Source: Halobaculum limi (GTDB lineage Archaea; Halobacteriota; Halobacteria; Halobacteriales; Haloferacaceae). From it: a stretch of 64,000 bases of DNA. A program made the translations under genes and the position numbers. Under the pieces are notes generated by a model that had not been told where the DNA came from, made no database searches, and was given only the letters and a program-made list of their open reading frames with translations. Below, one piece after another: positions 31,173 to 61,838 of this stretch. Positions within the stretch are counted from its first letter, which is position 1, and each line of letters starts with the position of its first letter. The stretch lies in assembly GCF_029490015.1 (NCBI RefSeq), contig NZ_CP120468.1, positions 558,001 through 622,000 of the forward strand, given 5' to 3'.

Positions 31173-31197
31173 GTTTTCGACTAGAAACGATGGGAGG
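31173..31197 (+). repeat. Outer ORB-like element, left
   Basis: TTTTCGACTAGAAACGATG followed by GGAGG. It shares the ACT-GAAACGA-GGG core of the canonical boxes but carries the variant TTTCGACTAGAAA. The mirror copy is at 31788-31810. Confidence 0.6.
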
Positions 31198-31518: not shown

Positions 31519-31548
31519 ACCCCCACCCCTTCGTTTCGACTGGAACTG
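31519..31548 (-). repeat. Canonical ORB, left of the unwinding region
   Basis: On the minus strand: GTTCCAGTCGAAACGAAGG then GGTGGGGGTGG. It has the full ORB core plus an extended G string pointing outward from the AT-rich element. Confidence 0.88.
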
Positions 31549-31575
31549 CTCACGAGTGAGGGGTGGGCCGAGGAA

Positions 31576-31670
31576 TCGACGATAGATATCTAGTCCACCA
31601 CTCCCTAAATTAATCTATTTGCTAGCGGTGCGGATATTGTTGTGTTTGCTATGTAATAAAGATGCCGAGG
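31576..31670. other. Putative DNA unwinding element
   Basis: An A+T-rich stretch with runs such as GATAGATATCTAG, CTAAATTAATCTATTTG and TATGTAATAAAG, lying exactly between the two inverted canonical ORBs. It is the most easily melted part of the intergenic region. Confidence 0.75.
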
Positions 31671-31707
31671 TCTAGACGCACCCCTCCCCCACCCCCTCGT
31701 CTGTAGA

Positions 31708-31736
31708 GTTCCACCAGAAACGAAGGGGTGGGGGGG
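31708..31736 (+). repeat. Canonical ORB, right of the unwinding region
   Basis: GTTCCACCAGAAACGAAGG followed by GGTGGGGGGG. It is inverted relative to the left box. A C-rich partial mirror (CACCCCCTCG at 31690-31699) precedes it and could pair with CGAAGGGGTG. Confidence 0.88.
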
Positions 31737-31787
31737 TCGAGATGTCGGTACAAGGCGGGGGCTGACGAGGAACACTCTGCCGCCACC

Positions 31788-31810
31788 ATCCCCTCTTTTC
31801 TAGTCGAAAT
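31788..31810 (-). repeat. Outer ORB-like element, right
   Basis: On the minus strand: ATTTCGACTAGAAAAGAGG then GGAT. It shares the variant core TTTCGACTAGAAA with the left outer element at 31173-31197, in inverted orientation. Confidence 0.55.
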
Positions 31811-32194
31811 CGGTTACGCCATCGACGAACTGGCTGTCCCGAGACGCCTATCCGACCCCCGCTACAACTGGGCCGTCTCCGATATCTCAACGACTTCTCT
31901 TAGCATGAGGCTAGTACACACGAATGTGATTATCTCACGAACCGGCATCCTACGGTGTGTCACCGATACTCATTCATCGACCGCGTGCTGCTCAACGGCC
32001 AACTGTTGGTCACCGTCGCTGGTCGAATTCGGCCAGCCGATCTGGTCGTCGGAGTTCGAGCGAACAGTAACGCTTTTGACCGACCTATCCATCCGTTTCG
32101 TTTGCATCATCTGGACATCGGCGGGTACGTTCATCAACGCGAACCCCATCGTATCCAGGGTGACGCGTCTCGATTCGACGGATGGGCCCGCTGG

Positions 32195-32216
32195 ATTCCA
32201 GTCGAAACGAAGGGGT
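32195..32216 (+). repeat. ORB immediately upstream of orc1
   Basis: ATTCCAGTCGAAACGAAGG then GGT, ending 11 bases before the orc1 ATG. At this place Orc1 binding would cover the orc1 promoter, so autoregulation is likely. Confidence 0.85.
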
Positions 32217-32227
32217 AACACGACCGA

Positions 32228-33838
32228 ATGACACGGGAAGACGACACGGGAGACGGTCCGGACAAGGAAGCACACGACGAACGAGCAGCGTCAGCCGACG
32301 GTCCGGCAGGGCGTCCAGACACCGCAGAGACGGATTCCGAGTCGCGTTCCCGCGAGGAAGCGGAGTCGGCCTTCGAGTTCGGGTCGGAGTCGCGGTCGCG
32401 GACCGACGTCGACCTCGACGTCGACGAGGTCCTCGGCGACGACGACGACGAGGCCAGTACCGGCCTGTTCGACGACCTCATGTCGGGTGAACCGATATTC
32501 GAGAACAAGGAGGTCCTCCGTCCGTCGTACACGCCGCACGAACTCCCGCACCGGAAAGACCAGATCAACAAGATGGCGACCATCCTCGTATCCGCGCTCC
32601 GTGGGGAGACGCCATCCAACATCCTCATCTACGGGAAGACCGGGACCGGGAAGACGGCCTCTGCGAAGTTCGTCTCCCAAGAGTTGGAGTCGACGAGTCA
32701 GAAGTACGACGTGCCGTGTGAGGTCGAGTACATCAACTGCGAAGTGACCGACACGCAGTATCGCGTGCTCGCGCAACTGGCGAACAAGTTCATCGAGAAG
32801 AACCAGGTGCTCATCGACGACCGCCTCGACGACCTCCGTGACCTCCGCTCGAAGGCGACCGACGGGGCCGGAGCGCTCACCGGAGTCGAGTTCGAGTCTG
32901 TGGCCGACCTCGACGAGCGAATCGCCGAACTGGAGGACGACCGCGAGGAGATGGAAGAGGTGCCGATGACTGGGTGGCCGACCGACCGCGTGTACACCTC
33001 CTTTTTCGACGCGGTCGACTACCACGAACGCGTCGTCGTGATTATGCTCGACGAGATCGACAAACTCGTCGAGAAGTCCGGCGACGACACCCTCTACAAC
33101 CTCTCGCGGATGAACTCCGAACTCGACAACTCCCGCATCTCGATTATGGGGATCTCGAACGACCTGAAGTTCACCGACTTCCTCGACCCCCGCGTCAAAT
33201 CCAGTCTCGGCGAGGAAGAGATCGTCTTCCCACCGTACGACGCCAACCAACTTCGCGACATCCTCCAGCACCGCTCCGATATCGCGTTCAAAGGCGAAGC
33301 GCTCACCGAGGACGTCATTCCGCTGTGTGCGGCGTTCGCCGCCCAGGAACACGGCGACGCCCGCCGTGCACTCGACTTGCTTCGAACTGCGGGCGAACTC
33401 GCCGAACGGTCCCAAGCAGACCTCGTCGAAGAAGCACACGTCAGGCAGGCGCAGGACAAGATCGAACTCGACCGCGTCGTCGAGGTCGTCCGCACCCTCC
33501 CGACGCAGTCGAAGATCGTCCTCTTCTCGATCATCCTGCTCGAACAGAACGGCGTCCACAACGTCAACACCGGCGAGGTGTTCAACATCTACAAACGGCT
33601 CTGTGAGGAGATCGACGCCGACGTCCTCACCCAACGTCGGGTGACGGACCTCATCTCCGAACTCGACATGCTCGGCATCGTCAACGCCGTCGTCGTCTCC
33701 AAGGGGCGGTACGGTCGGACGAAAGAGATCAGCCTCTCGGTTCCCATCGACGAGACCGAAGCTGTCCTCCTGTCGGACTCGCGTCTCGGCGACATCGACG
33801 ACGTTCAGCCGTTCGTGCAGGCCCGCTTCGACAACTGA
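32228..33838 (+). CDS. orc1: Origin recognition protein Orc1/Cdc6
   Basis: 536 residues. An acidic, probably disordered extension (~1-85) precedes the AAA+ domain: Walker A YGKTGTGKT (~135-143), Walker B VVIMLDEID, sensor 1 MGISND and sensor 2 HGDARRALDLLR. A C-terminal winged helix follows (SKIVLFSIILLEQNG, TQRRVTDLISELDMLGIV). It binds ORBs and recruits MCM. Within the AAA+ domain the loop between sensor regions contains an acidic coiled segment (FESVADLDERIAELEDDREEMEE, in parts), an insert seen in the main haloarchaeal origin-linked Orc. It reads away from the origin, as HVO_0001-type orc1 genes do. Confidence 0.95.
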   Translation: MTREDDTGDGPDKEAHDERAASADGPAGRPDTAETDSESRSREEAESAFEFGSESRSRTDVDLDVDEVLGDDDDEASTGLFDDLMSGEPIFENKEVLRPSYTPHELPHRKDQINKMATILVSALRGETPSNILIYGKTGTGKTASAKFVSQELESTSQKYDVPCEVEYINCEVTDTQYRVLAQLANKFIEKNQVLIDDRLDDLRDLRSKATDGAGALTGVEFESVADLDERIAELEDDREEMEEVPMTGWPTDRVYTSFFDAVDYHERVVVIMLDEIDKLVEKSGDDTLYNLSRMNSELDNSRISIMGISNDLKFTDFLDPRVKSSLGEEEIVFPPYDANQLRDILQHRSDIAFKGEALTEDVIPLCAAFAAQEHGDARRALDLLRTAGELAERSQADLVEEAHVRQAQDKIELDRVVEVVRTLPTQSKIVLFSIILLEQNGVHNVNTGEVFNIYKRLCEEIDADVLTQRRVTDLISELDMLGIVNAVVVSKGRYGRTKEISLSVPIDETEAVLLSDSRLGDIDDVQPFVQARFDN

Positions 33839-34095
33839 GCCACTACACTCTCCGCGCGGGGGACTCCATTCTCTGGTGACACTCTCTCACCCACACCCCT
33901 TTGCTTCGACTCTACGACCTGTTTCACGTCGTAGAAATTTCGTTGACTGACCACTCCACTCGAAATGATGGTGTGTCGGTCACTATCGAATCCGCGTCGG
34001 TGTTCATCGGTGCTATTGCAGCGTGTATCGCTGTCGTGGCGGCAGAGGGAACACACTTGTCGAATCCACCCCTCACCGTTCCTCGTTGCTCGCGT
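33839..34095. other. orc1-sec11 intergenic region with degenerate ORB pair
   Basis: A 257-base gap between convergent genes. An ORB-like site in minus orientation (33894-33914, CACCCCTTTGCTTCGACTC) and one in plus orientation (33953-33975, ACTCGAAATGATGGTGTG) face each other across a short AT-rich segment with GTAGAAATTTCGTTG. Both depart from the canonical core at several positions. No gene is visible. Confidence 0.5.
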
Positions 34096-34848
34096 TCACG
34101 TCGTCGCAGGTGTCAGCGCTCCCCCACGGGGTGTGACAGTCGGTGGTGACGCCTGGCGGGGGCGCTCTGCGGTCGCGAGGTCGTTCGCCGCTGGCGTCTC
34201 TTGGGCCAACACCGACTCGGAGAAGATGAGTCGGACGTAGCCGAGATACGGCACCCGGACGCGGGCGGCGCCGTGGACCCATTCGGTCTTCACGACGGGT
34301 GCGATGCCGCTCACCTGGTCGTACTGAGAGTTGGCGTCGCCTTTCGTGATGAACCCGGCGTAGGGTGCTGGGCAGGCAGGGACGCGGTCGCACGACTGCG
34401 CGGGGAGATAGTCGGGGTTCGCGCGGTCGACCCAGTTCTCCCCCTCTTCGACGTGCAGTTGCGCCCGGTGGATGATCGGTGGCCCACCCTCTCCGGGCGG
34501 GCGATACACGATGACCGACCCAGCCATCCCGAACGTCGAGTAGCCCTCCGCTTGTCCGGTCTCGAAGGTGACGATGCCCGTGTCGCCGTAGGCAGCGTCG
34601 GGAGCGAAGCGGTCGGGTTGCGTGATGAACACGAGGTCACCACGCTCCATGTGTGGTTCCATACTGCCGGACTCGACGGCGACCATCGGTGGCCACACGC
34701 CGGAGACGGCGAACAAGAGGAGACCGACCAACGCGACCGCGGCCGCCGACGACAGCACCTCACGAAGCACCATCAGCGGACCCGTCTCCGCGTGGAGGAA
34801 GCGTGACAGCGGGTCGTCGGGTCGCGGGGACCGCCCGTCGTCGCTCAT
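34096..34848 (-). CDS. sec11: Signal peptidase I (archaeal S26B type)
   Basis: 250 residues. After a polar start and one membrane helix (~33-50) comes the catalytic box VESGSMEPHM (Ser62), then GDTGIVTF, PPIIHRA with the His127 that replaces bacterial Lys, and FITKGDANSQYDQ, which supplies Asp. The C-terminus has a second hydrophobic segment and a Pro/Thr-rich tail. It removes Sec signal peptides on the outer membrane face. The start at 34848 (MSDDGRSP) is preferred over the longer frame to 34932. The orc1-sec11-polD1 order matches the Haloferax volcanii origin region. Confidence 0.9.
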   Translation of the reverse strand: MSDDGRSPRPDDPLSRFLHAETGPLMVLREVLSSAAAVALVGLLLFAVSGVWPPMVAVESGSMEPHMERGDLVFITQPDRFAPDAAYGDTGIVTFETGQAEGYSTFGMAGSVIVYRPPGEGGPPIIHRAQLHVEEGENWVDRANPDYLPAQSCDRVPACPAPYAGFITKGDANSQYDQVSGIAPVVKTEWVHGAARVRVPYLGYVRLIFSESVLAQETPAANDLATAERPRQASPPTVTPRGGALTPATT

Positions 34849-34991
34849 TACCAACCCACATCCGGCGTGCGGTGTTGAACCTTCTGTTAGCGGGGTTACG
34901 TGGCGCCGGCAAACGGCGGCGTGCCCGTCCACCTTCCGACACGCCAGCGCCGTCCGCTACCCTTTTGCCCACCGCAGGCCCACCTCGGTTC

Positions 34992-36653
34992 GTGCCCTTA
35001 GAGACGTCCTCTCGAGTCGTGCAGGCGCTGACCCGCCTCGGGTACAACGCCCAACGAGAGGCCGTCACCCTCATCGCCGAGTCCGACGCGCCCGAACTCC
35101 TCTTACAGGAGGCCGTCGAGGTCGCACCCGACGACGCACTCGTCATCACGGTCGACCACGTCCGTACGGCCCAAGACCGCGACCCCGTCCCCGACCCCGC
35201 GGGCGTTGACGACGCCACCTCGTCCGCCGCGAGCGACGTGGGAACGACTCCCACCAACACTCCCGACTCCGCCGGCGCTACTGACCCCGTCGACACCGCC
35301 GACGCGAGCGAGTCCACAGCTCACGATTCCGCCGCGTCGACGGCCGCAGACCCCTCCATTTCGACTGGAACTGAGCCAGGGAAGTCACCACCCGATACCG
35401 GAGGGGTTCCAGTCGAAACGGGGGGGTCGACGATCGGGAGTCGGTCGCCGACGCCGCCTGCCGTCGCCAACGATATGACCGGCCAGTCGACTGGGACCGG
35501 CGCGTACGACGAGTTCGTCGGCGTGTTCCGCGACCGGTACGAGCGGTTGTCAGGGCAACTTCGCGGGCGCGTGAACCACCGCCCGGCCGACTCCATCGAG
35601 GCGATGGGTGGCGGCGCGGACGTGGAGACTATCGGCCTCGTCAACGACATCCGCTCGACCGCCTCCGGCCACTGGCTCATCGAGTTGGAGGACACCACGG
35701 GGACGTTCCCCTGTCTGGTGATGAAAGACCGCGACATCGCGGACCTGGTCGATGAACTCCTCCTCGACGAGTGTATCGCCATCTCGGGGACGCTCGCGGA
35801 CGACGCGGGCATCGTCTTCGTCGACGCCATCCACTTCCCGGACGTGCCGCGGACGTACCGCCCGAGCACCGCCGACCGCCACGTGCAGGCGGCGCTCATC
35901 TCGGACGTGCACGTCGGCTCTCAGGAGTTCCTCGCGGACGCGTGGTCGCGGTTCGCAGACTGGCTGCACACCGAGGAGGCCGAGACAGTGGAGTACCTCC
36001 TCATCGCGGGCGACATGGTCGAGGGCGTCGGCGTCTACCCGAACCAAGACGAGGAACTCGACATCATCGACATCTACGACCAGTATGAGACGTTTGCGGA
36101 ACACCTGAAGGAGGTGCCCGGGGATATGGAGATCGTGATGATCCCCGGCAACCACGACGCGGTTCGCCTCGCGGAGCCACAACCGGGCTTCGACGAAGAA
36201 CTCCGCGAGATTATGAGCGCGCACGACCCGCAGATCGTGAGCAACCCCGCGATGGTCGACGTCGAGGGCGTGTCCGTCCTGATGTACCACGGCGTCTCGC
36301 TGGACGAAGTGATCGCCGAACTGCCCGCAGAAAAAGCGAGTTACGACGAACCCCACAAGGCGATGTACCAGTTGCTCAAGAAGCGCCACGTCGCCCCGCA
36401 GTTCGGCGGTCGCACCCGCGTTGCACCCGAGGAACGCGACTACCTCGTCATCGACGAGGTACCCGACGTGTTCCACACCGGCCACGTCCACAAACTCGGC
36501 TGGGGGAAGTACCACAACGTCCTCGCGGTCAACTCCGGGTGCTGGCAGGCGCAGACCGACTTCCAGAAGTCCGTCAACATCGACCCCGACGCTGGCTACG
36601 CCCCCATCCTGGATCTGGACACGCTCGATATGACCGTCCGGAAGTTCGTCTGA
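34992..36653 (+). CDS. polD1: DNA polymerase D small subunit (DP1, proofreading exonuclease)
   Basis: 553 residues from a GTG at 34992 (PLETSSRVVQALTRLGYNAQREAV); upstream frame sequence to 34653 overlaps sec11 and is not protein-like. A small N-terminal helical domain (~1-60) and a ~110-residue low-complexity linker lead to an OB-fold (GLVNDIRSTASGHWLIELED) and a Mre11-like phosphoesterase with SDVHVGS, IAGDMVEGVG, PGNHDAV, MYHGVSLDE and HTGHVHKLG. All metal-binding blocks are intact, so the 3'-5' exonuclease should work. It pairs with DP2 encoded elsewhere. The linker-coding DNA unexpectedly carries two inverted ORBs. Confidence 0.93.
   Translation: MPLETSSRVVQALTRLGYNAQREAVTLIAESDAPELLLQEAVEVAPDDALVITVDHVRTAQDRDPVPDPAGVDDATSSAASDVGTTPTNTPDSAGATDPVDTADASESTAHDSAASTAADPSISTGTEPGKSPPDTGGVPVETGGSTIGSRSPTPPAVANDMTGQSTGTGAYDEFVGVFRDRYERLSGQLRGRVNHRPADSIEAMGGGADVETIGLVNDIRSTASGHWLIELEDTTGTFPCLVMKDRDIADLVDELLLDECIAISGTLADDAGIVFVDAIHFPDVPRTYRPSTADRHVQAALISDVHVGSQEFLADAWSRFADWLHTEEAETVEYLLIAGDMVEGVGVYPNQDEELDIIDIYDQYETFAEHLKEVPGDMEIVMIPGNHDAVRLAEPQPGFDEELREIMSAHDPQIVSNPAMVDVEGVSVLMYHGVSLDEVIAELPAEKASYDEPHKAMYQLLKKRHVAPQFGGRTRVAPEERDYLVIDEVPDVFHTGHVHKLGWGKYHNVLAVNSGCWQAQTDFQKSVNIDPDAGYAPILDLDTLDMTVRKFV
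35350..35427. repeat. Inverted pair of ORBs inside polD1
   Basis: Left arm 35350-35371 (minus strand GTTCCAGTCGAAATGGAGG then GGT) and right arm 35406-35427 (GTTCCAGTCGAAACGGGGG then GGT). The 22-base arms match at 19 positions and contain the full TTCCAGTCGAAA core of the oriC1 boxes. They lie in the low-complexity linker coding region. The 34-base spacer is not AT-rich. Confidence 0.8.
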
Positions 36654-40425: not shown

Positions 40426-41547
40426 TCACTCCCGTTCGACCACGCGCACGTCCGTCGGGTCGATGCCGAGCGTCACCGACTCGCCTGCCTCGAACGACCG
40501 TTCGCCGTCCGTTCGTGCCGTGAGACGGACGCCGTTCCAGTCGCAACGAAGGCGTGTCGCGTCACCGAGGAACTCGGTGCTCTCAACAGACGCCGGAAGT
40601 GGAATGTGATCGGCTGTCACGCCCTCGTCGCCACGGAAGACGTCGATTCGCTCGGGTCGGACGCAGACCACGAGCCGGTCGCCGTCGCCGGTCACCTCCT
40701 CCGGTTCGGGTGGAAGCGGGAGCGTTCCCTTGCCCGCGTTGTCGACGCGGATGCGAGGAGCACCTGATTCATCGCGCCGACCCTCGGCCACGCCCGCGAT
40801 GACGTTGTTGTCACCGAGGAACTCCGCGACGAACTGCGTCTCGGGGGCGTCGTACAGCGTCCGGGGCGTGCCCACCTGTTCGATGCCGCCGTCGTTGACG
40901 ACGGCGACGCGGTCGGAGACGGCCAGCGCCTCCTCCTGATCGTGGGTGACGTACACCGTCGTCAGCCCCAGTTCGCGCTGGATGTCGCGCACCTGCACGC
41001 GGAGTCGCTCCCGGAGACGAGCATCGAGCGCCGACATCGGTTCGTCCAGCAAGAGCAGACGCGGTTCGGGCGCGAGCGCCCGCGCCAGCGCCACTCGCTG
41101 TCGCTGCCCGCCCGAGAGTGTGTCGGGGTCGCGGTCGGCGAAGCCAGCGAGGTCGACGAGGTCGAGCAGTTCGGCAACCCGTTCGGCTCTCGTCGTCCCC
41201 GCGGGCGGGTCGGTGAACTGGAGGCCGTAGGCGACGTTCTCGCCGACGCTCATGTGCGGGAACAGCGCGTAACTCTGGAAGACGACCCCGATCCCCCTCG
41301 CTTCGGGTGGAACCCCACGCATCGACTCGTCGCCGATACTCACGGTTCCCGACGTCGGCTCTTCGAAGCCGGCGATACAGCGGAGTGTAGTGGTCTTGCC
41401 GCACCCCGAGGGGCCGACGAGCGTGAAGAACTCGCCCGGGTCGACCGTCACGTCGACGCCGTCGAGCGCGGTCGTATTGCCGTACTCGACCCGGAGGTCC
41501 TCCAGTCGAACCCCCGCTTCGTTATCCACGGAACTCACCTCCGACAC
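40426..41547 (-). CDS. ABC importer ATP-binding protein (thiamine/iron/spermidine type)
   Basis: 373 residues. ATPase motifs are GPSGCGKTTTLRCIAGFE, Q-loop FQSYALFPHMSVGENVAYGL, LSGGQRQRVALARALAPEP and LLLLDEPMSALDA. A C-terminal TOBE-like domain follows (VVCVRPERIDVF, ESTEFLGDATRLRCDW). It is the POT/FbpC/ThiQ class that energises binding-protein-dependent import. It overlaps the permease gene by 26 bases and completes a three-gene operon 44412-40426. The substrate is inferred from the binding protein. Confidence 0.88.
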   Translation of the reverse strand: MSEVSSVDNEAGVRLEDLRVEYGNTTALDGVDVTVDPGEFFTLVGPSGCGKTTTLRCIAGFEEPTSGTVSIGDESMRGVPPEARGIGVVFQSYALFPHMSVGENVAYGLQFTDPPAGTTRAERVAELLDLVDLAGFADRDPDTLSGGQRQRVALARALAPEPRLLLLDEPMSALDARLRERLRVQVRDIQRELGLTTVYVTHDQEEALAVSDRVAVVNDGGIEQVGTPRTLYDAPETQFVAEFLGDNNVIAGVAEGRRDESGAPRIRVDNAGKGTLPLPPEPEEVTGDGDRLVVCVRPERIDVFRGDEGVTADHIPLPASVESTEFLGDATRLRCDWNGVRLTARTDGERSFEAGESVTLGIDPTDVRVVERE

Positions 41548-61816: not shown

Positions 61817-61838
61817 GTTCCAGTCGAAACGAAGGGGT
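61817..61838 (+). repeat. Isolated canonical ORB
   Basis: GTTCCAGTCGAAACGAAGG then GGT, matching the core of the oriC1 boxes without mismatch, in an intergenic region 30 kb away from oriC1. An A+T-rich patch begins ~20 bases downstream. Confidence 0.8.

Follow-up and report, generated by a model that had tools for sequence, protein, structure and literature searches.

An inverted pair of initiator-type boxes (ORBs) is present within polD1, the gene for DP1, the small subunit of the replicative DNA polymerase, in most Halobacteria, and it is nearly certain that these boxes are under selection at the level of DNA. Judging from sequence, the likely binder of both boxes is Orc1, the initiator encoded next to the origin oriC1, and the site is probably used to control when replication starts.

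Inverted ORB pair in the polD1 gene

The window analyzed here is a stretch of 64,000 nucleotides from Halobaculum limi. Its polD1 open reading frame (34992..36653, + strand) starts with a GTG codon at 34992, encodes the Pfam domains DNA_pol_E_B and Metallophos, and hosts the pair, in frame, within a low-complexity linker. The pair reported by the initial annotation is indeed present. The left box at 35350-35371 (+) reads ACCCCTCCATTTCGACTGGAAC, has its C-string outward and its core inward, and is kept in relatives; it is followed by a 34-bp spacer (35372..35405) of fixed length and unconserved sequence, and then by the right box at 35406-35427 (-), GTTCCAGTCGAAACGGGGGGGT, i.e. the reverse complement of ACCCCCCCGTTTCGACTGGAAC. 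On recounting, the two boxes proved to be identical at 20 of 22 positions rather than 19, and a repeat listing gives the pair as 91% complementary over 23 nt. Each box contains a perfect 12-nt core and a four-C string, as do the oriC1 boxes at 31525, 31708 and 32195, with the G-strings of the pair pointing outward and the cores inward. For scoring, we used a 22-nt ORB matrix trained only on sites from the 1.5-kb region preceding orc1, with the DP1 boxes kept out of the training set. On this oriC1-only matrix the left and right boxes reach 32.2 and 30.9 bits and rank fifth and sixth in the 64-kb window; the oriC1 boxes score 34.6-37.0 bits, and the core and G-string of the polD1 boxes match them.

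The gene order in this region is oriC1, orc1, a signal-peptidase-like ORF and polD1, with about 3.1-3.8 kb between the pair and the oriC1 boxes. The origin (31525..32216) comprises ORBs at 31525 (+), 31708 (-) and 32195 (-), weaker sites at 31175 and 31788, and an AT-rich stretch at ~31600-31660. The orc1/cdc6 initiator gene, whose product is the presumed binder, occupies 32228..33838 (+; Pfam Cdc6_C and Cdc6_lid). A weaker ORB of 24.4 bits (33953..33974, -) lies between it and the signal-peptidase-like gene (34096-34932, -), which is named by synteny with published maps. ORB-like sites were also observed at 41292 (+, 24.1 bits) and 40534 (-, 23.1 bits), within the stretch of an ABC-transporter-like ORF.

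A chance origin of the pair was rejected by shuffles, genome-wide counts and a strict-pattern survey with a backward control. In the window, the core with up to two mismatches occurs 14 times against 3.6 expected, a count reached by none of 100 shuffles. The whole 3.48-Mb genome has five occurrences of the core (one free base) and six of the full ORB pattern CCCC N4 TTTCNASTGGAR. Two of these six constitute the polD1 pair, while the other four are found at oriC1 (two), 41 kb to the left of orc1 (one) and 30 kb to its right (one). Altogether 147 genomes, including that of the window, have a handful of full patterns each, with at least one in 140 of them; the backward control was found in 4.

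Conservation across Halobacteria

We compared 120 DP1 loci from related genomes together with the window (121 loci in total), counting a pair where two inverted boxes, each above 9 bits, lie inside DP1. Conservation in the polD1 linkers of relatives had been named in the initial annotation as a test of its proposal, and this test found the pair kept in 93 of 121 loci on the oriC1-only matrix. At least one site above 9 bits, in some cases weak, is retained in 24 of the 28 remaining loci; no box above 9 bits was found in DP1 of the other four (L064, L127, L137 and L154), three of which are orc1-linked. Among 80 named genomes, a set overlapping the 121 loci, 61 have the pair, including species of Haloarcula, Haloferax, Natrinema, Halogranum and Halomicrobium, and the other 19 retain a single site. 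The listed Halorubrum species have no full pair and mainly retain the right box with the orc1 linkage intact; the right box alone is kept in other genomes as well. Given the situation in Halorubrum and the 4 of 121 loci devoid of any box above 9 bits, the pair is not indispensable.

An additional 20 loci from rarer families yielded six pairs, three single boxes and ten cases with no box, with one uninformative locus (L303 of G089) that covers only the 3' part of DP1. The ten loci with no box belong to families f9, f2 and f15 and to two genomes of genus g9. We also scanned 392 whole genomes of the order with a strict pattern consisting of perfect cores at the spacing of the pair. This pattern matched 171 genomes representing 50 of 95 genera, whereas its backward control matched a single genome of 392. 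In all but four genomes the match falls at a single place, and this place was DP1 in all 30 loci checked among the 171 matching genomes. The pair is essentially unique in each genome.

Outside the class, other families of the phylum contributed 19 DP1 loci, and none of these has an ORB above 6 bits in the linker. Three loci of one non-haloarchaeal family (L246:1863, L254:637 and L255:1863) have a common ORB-like site, with a raw score of 17 bits, at the same place in the 3' half of DP1. In five of the other-family loci, matches were seen downstream of DP1 in a neighbouring stretch resembling conserved coding sequence.

The geometry of the pair is tightly constrained. Among the 93 pairs, the spacer length is 34 bp in 76, 31 bp in 13, 46 bp in three and 49 bp in one. 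In contrast, box 1 lies at 52 different distances from the start codon, between 190 and 496 nt, and box 2 at 35 different distances from the C-terminal domain (the domain anchor is missing in one of the 93). Spacing is therefore under selection while the lengths of the flanks vary. A gap fixed in length yet random in sequence suggests that two protein molecules have to come into contact. Inverted ORB pairs outside DP1, chiefly those of oriC1, have the same polarity and are typically ~190-210 bp apart.

Selection on DNA rather than protein

The contribution of the encoded protein was assessed with a synonymous null, in which codons were reshuffled with each gene's own usage (36,000 draws over 120 genes); locus L151 was left out because it has no long frame from the assumed start. 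The pair arises in 0.9% of the reshuffled sequences, compared with 92 of the 120 real genes. All 92 pair-bearing genes are at the smallest attainable p-value (1/301), and the best single box reaches this limit in 109 of 120 genes. Codon choice within the boxes is nearly invariant and strongly deviates from the rest of the same genes. For instance, box valines are encoded by GTT in 71 of 71 cases (6% elsewhere), threonines by ACT in 66 of 66 (5%), and glutamates by GAA in 93 of 93 (25%). The same applies to prolines (CCA in 82 of 83, 5% elsewhere), glycines (GGA in 63 of 65, 8%) and serines (TCT in 33 of 35, 2%).

Across loci, the boxes always occupy the same reading frame, which indicates that the pair was inherited and not re-invented. 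Shared ancestry alone is nevertheless insufficient to account for the mean pairwise identity of about 0.75 in the boxes, since the spacer between them stands at 0.32. Taken together, the synonymous null, the fixed rare codons and the conservation strongly support the earlier suggestion that the DNA of the linker, rather than the protein, is selected, and the fixed rare codons and fixed spacing imply a DNA-binding partner. That a conserved linker peptide motif (DPSVSTGT ... SPVETKGS) is the selected feature, with the likeness to ORBs as a by-product, is scarcely credible: the constant frame and the conserved peptides agree with it, but the synonymous null and the codon test show it to be insufficient, the same DNA box read both ways gives two unrelated peptides, and the residues that vary do so mainly at degenerate ORB positions.

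Linkage to orc1 and the distribution of ORBs around oriC1

The pair is usually located ~3-4 kb from oriC1. The pair was found in 83 of the 102 loci with orc1 close upstream of DP1, compared with 10 of the 19 others (Fisher p 0.014, kinship ignored). Between orc1 and DP1, an ORB above 20 bits occurs in 26 of the 102 linked loci. The one genus with DP1 more than 100 kb from orc1 is g9; of its two measurable genomes, one has a distance of ~143 kb and the other, assuming a circular contig, ~221 kb. The pair is gone in all four g9 genomes, leaving a weak 14-bit site in one and nothing above 9 bits in three. No replacement pair of this geometry was found near orc1 in the two g9 loci L279 and L280, where weak single sites occur ~1.8 kb beyond the start of orc1. 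Elsewhere, four genomes (G128, G117, G074 and G029) retain the pair at 13-53 kb from orc1. Because the boxes were lost in g9, where polD1 is far from orc1, a role in cis towards oriC1 is favoured over a role in polD1 expression, on the slender grounds of one genus.

The distances of full ORBs from the orc1 start were surveyed in the 47 genomes that have complete match lists and carry orc1 on a large contig; small contigs were left out, as were three matches on other contigs (G054:C3, G082:C3 and G088:C1). Of 164 full ORBs, 145 are found within 60 kb around oriC1, with 65 at up to 1.5 kb, 48 at 1.5-6 kb and 32 at 6-60 kb, the last range having 5.8 expected under a uniform distribution. The numbers at 60-200 kb equal the expectation (15 against 15.0), and only four ORBs lie beyond 200 kb, against 142.5 expected. 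At 6-60 kb, the G-string of these satellite ORBs points away from oriC1 in 24 cases versus 7 (p 0.003, kinship ignored; one row, the DP1 box itself, was left out), compared with 7 versus 8 at 60-200 kb. This orientation bias may result from strand composition or from function.

In the window, an intergenic satellite ORB of 37.0 bits lies 29.6 kb from orc1 (61817..61838, -). It follows a PALP/ACT-domain (threonine-dehydratase-like) gene, and a satellite with the same gene neighbours was observed in one additional genus as well as in other Halobaculum genomes (L266, L267, L269, L270, L272, L273 and L283). A single ORB 41 kb from orc1 (L264:3759; G000:C1 ~548759, 9 kb left of the window) is located downstream of a gene pair encoding a Hel308-like helicase and Cgi121. 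The genomes G025, G044 and G062 have an ORB ~30-35 nt after this gene pair, and the satellite recurs by synteny in three genera.

Possible roles of the pair

Three roles had been proposed for Orc1 bound at this site: titration of the initiator, control of polD1 transcription and auxiliary initiation. The first of these, broadened to titration or control, fits best, whereas the other two are disfavoured by the evidence considered below. Our preferred mechanism is a cis-acting Orc1 titration or control module for oriC1, a tentative choice whose probability we put slightly short of an even chance. The linker codons of polD1 would form a bipartite putative Orc1 site with two convergent ORBs of the oriC1 type, 31-34 bp apart. 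The product of the neighbouring orc1 gene would occupy both boxes, probably together in view of their fixed spacing. Rather than firing itself, the bound pair would serve oriC1 in cis as a sink for the initiator or as a control site. After oriC1 firing and passage of the fork through polD1, two pairs would be available for each origin to hold Orc1 and damp re-initiation, by analogy with the proposed role of oriC2D at oriC2 in Haloarcula hispanica and of E. coli datA towards DnaA. Single ORBs farther out, within ~60 kb of oriC1, may be part of the same system.

The number of boxes bears on this mechanism in two ways. The median number of strong boxes, two in DP1 versus three at oriC1, speaks for titration, but it is far below the 11 of oriC2D, beside which two boxes are a small sink. 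In addition, a sink should have no need of an exact spacing of 31 or 34 bp; this feature hints at a complex of defined shape, formed by pairing, looping, handcuffing or helicase loading, over mere titration.

Such a complex is central to the main rival, in which the pair is a structural part of the oriC1 replicator that loops to the origin when bound by Orc1, in handcuffing or helicase loading, and may stimulate rather than restrain it. We regard this role as possible, although unlikely. It agrees with the fixed spacing of 31 or 34 bp, the convergent polarity and the random spacer sequence, with the polarity shared with the more widely spaced (~190-210 bp) oriC1 pairs, and with the close upstream position of orc1 in 102 of 121 loci. 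However, according to the accessible sections of Wu et al. (PMC3936714), a minimal intergenic region with two ORBs suffices in Haloarcula hispanica for autonomous replication from oriC1, so plasmids can replicate without the polD1 pair; the survival of pairs at 13-53 kb in some genomes argues against this role as well. The looped replicator accounts better for the exact spacing. We prefer the sink or control module based on the number of boxes and the known case of oriC2D.

A coupling of polymerase D supply to the initiator, in which Orc1 on the pair would block or slow polD1 transcription so that the polymerase level tracks free Orc1, is distinctly unlikely. No gene other than polD1 was seen to carry the pair, and its position there is always 190-496 nt past the start; yet the distance from start to box varies widely, and the boxes decay in g9, far from orc1, whereas a regulator of the gene should move with it. 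An operator at the promoter is likewise disfavoured, since the 300 nt preceding the gene contain no ORB scoring above 12 bits in any of the 121 loci.

An auxiliary or dormant initiation site inside polD1 is very improbable: the ORBs are inverted with G-strings outward as at oriC1, but they are separated by 31-34 bp rather than ~190-210 bp, and no AT-rich unwinding element was found between or near them, the best 80-bp windows averaging 44% AT versus 65% at oriC1 and the spacer itself having 38%, which disfavours a canonical origin.

Relation to known systems

The polD1 boxes share their core, G-string and polarity with the ORBs of haloarchaeal oriC1 (Wu et al. 2012, 2013) and score near the oriC1 range. 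In contrast to these, the polD1 pair is located in coding sequence, has its boxes 31-34 bp apart instead of ~190-210 bp and lacks an AT-rich element. It also departs from an intergenic position adjoining orc/cdc6, which is a search criterion of the literature and not a binding property. Haloarchaeal origin surveys, in their accessible text, address intergenic regions beside orc/cdc6 genes (PMC3528665, PMC4595724), and Wu et al. 2012, in the sections available, surveyed only the intergenic regions flanking these genes (PMC3528665).

Initiator-type boxes outside a functional origin characterize titration loci, and the polD1 pair, which has no origin anatomy, shares this feature. The available text of Wu et al. 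(PMC3936714) proposes that the ORB cluster oriC2D of Haloarcula hispanica titrates Cdc6E. Both oriC2D and the polD1 pair contain initiator boxes near but outside an origin and have no origin anatomy (PMC3936714, as far as its available text goes). However, oriC2D is described there (PMC3936714) as intergenic, with 11 ORBs and another initiator, whereas polD1 has two boxes at fixed spacing within codons. A bacterial counterpart is E. coli datA, named as a DnaA titration locus in the accessible part of PMC4010727; both lie away from the origin and have a proposed sink function as initiator-binding sites, datA being bacterial and specific to DnaA.

A further parallel concerns Thermococcales. In the accessible text of Berthon et al. 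2008, which cites Matsunaga et al. 2007, an ORB and mini-ORB repeats are reported in the DP1 gene of four Thermococcales (PMC2643942), so that initiator boxes occur in the same polymerase subunit gene and close to oriC (PMC2643942, accessible text). Thermococcales are another order, and the parallel as described covers the presence of boxes in DP1 near oriC (PMC2643942). In the open-licence literature, supplements aside, we found no report of haloarchaeal ORBs inside DP1. Boxes in DP1 are therefore not unheard of; within that literature, no publication was found that describes, for Halobacteria, their conservation throughout the class, their inverted arrangement or the selection on their codons.

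Biological significance

Haloarchaea are polyploid and use several origins, and the limits on initiation at oriC1 are poorly known. The polD1 pair constitutes a class-wide, DNA-selected putative initiator site outside the origin and within a replication gene, of a type missed by intergenic-only surveys. It also illustrates clearly how a DNA-binding code constrains the coding sequence of a protein linker. Both boxes can be silently recoded in a model species, which gives a direct handle on the control of oriC1.

A broader reading, which we consider somewhat unlikely, is that the pair is a dedicated bipartite Orc1-binding control element in polymerase codons, at the centre of a halo of oriented Orc1 sites within ~60 kb of oriC1, and the archaeal counterpart of the bacterial extra-origin DnaA-box systems. 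Such a halo would include the sites in polD1, downstream of the Hel308-like/Cgi121 pair and beside the threonine-dehydratase-like gene. If this reading is true, the polD1 site would, in view of the Thermococcales report, be an ancient feature of Euryarchaeota, and initiator dose, polymerase gene and origin would be wired together in one locus.
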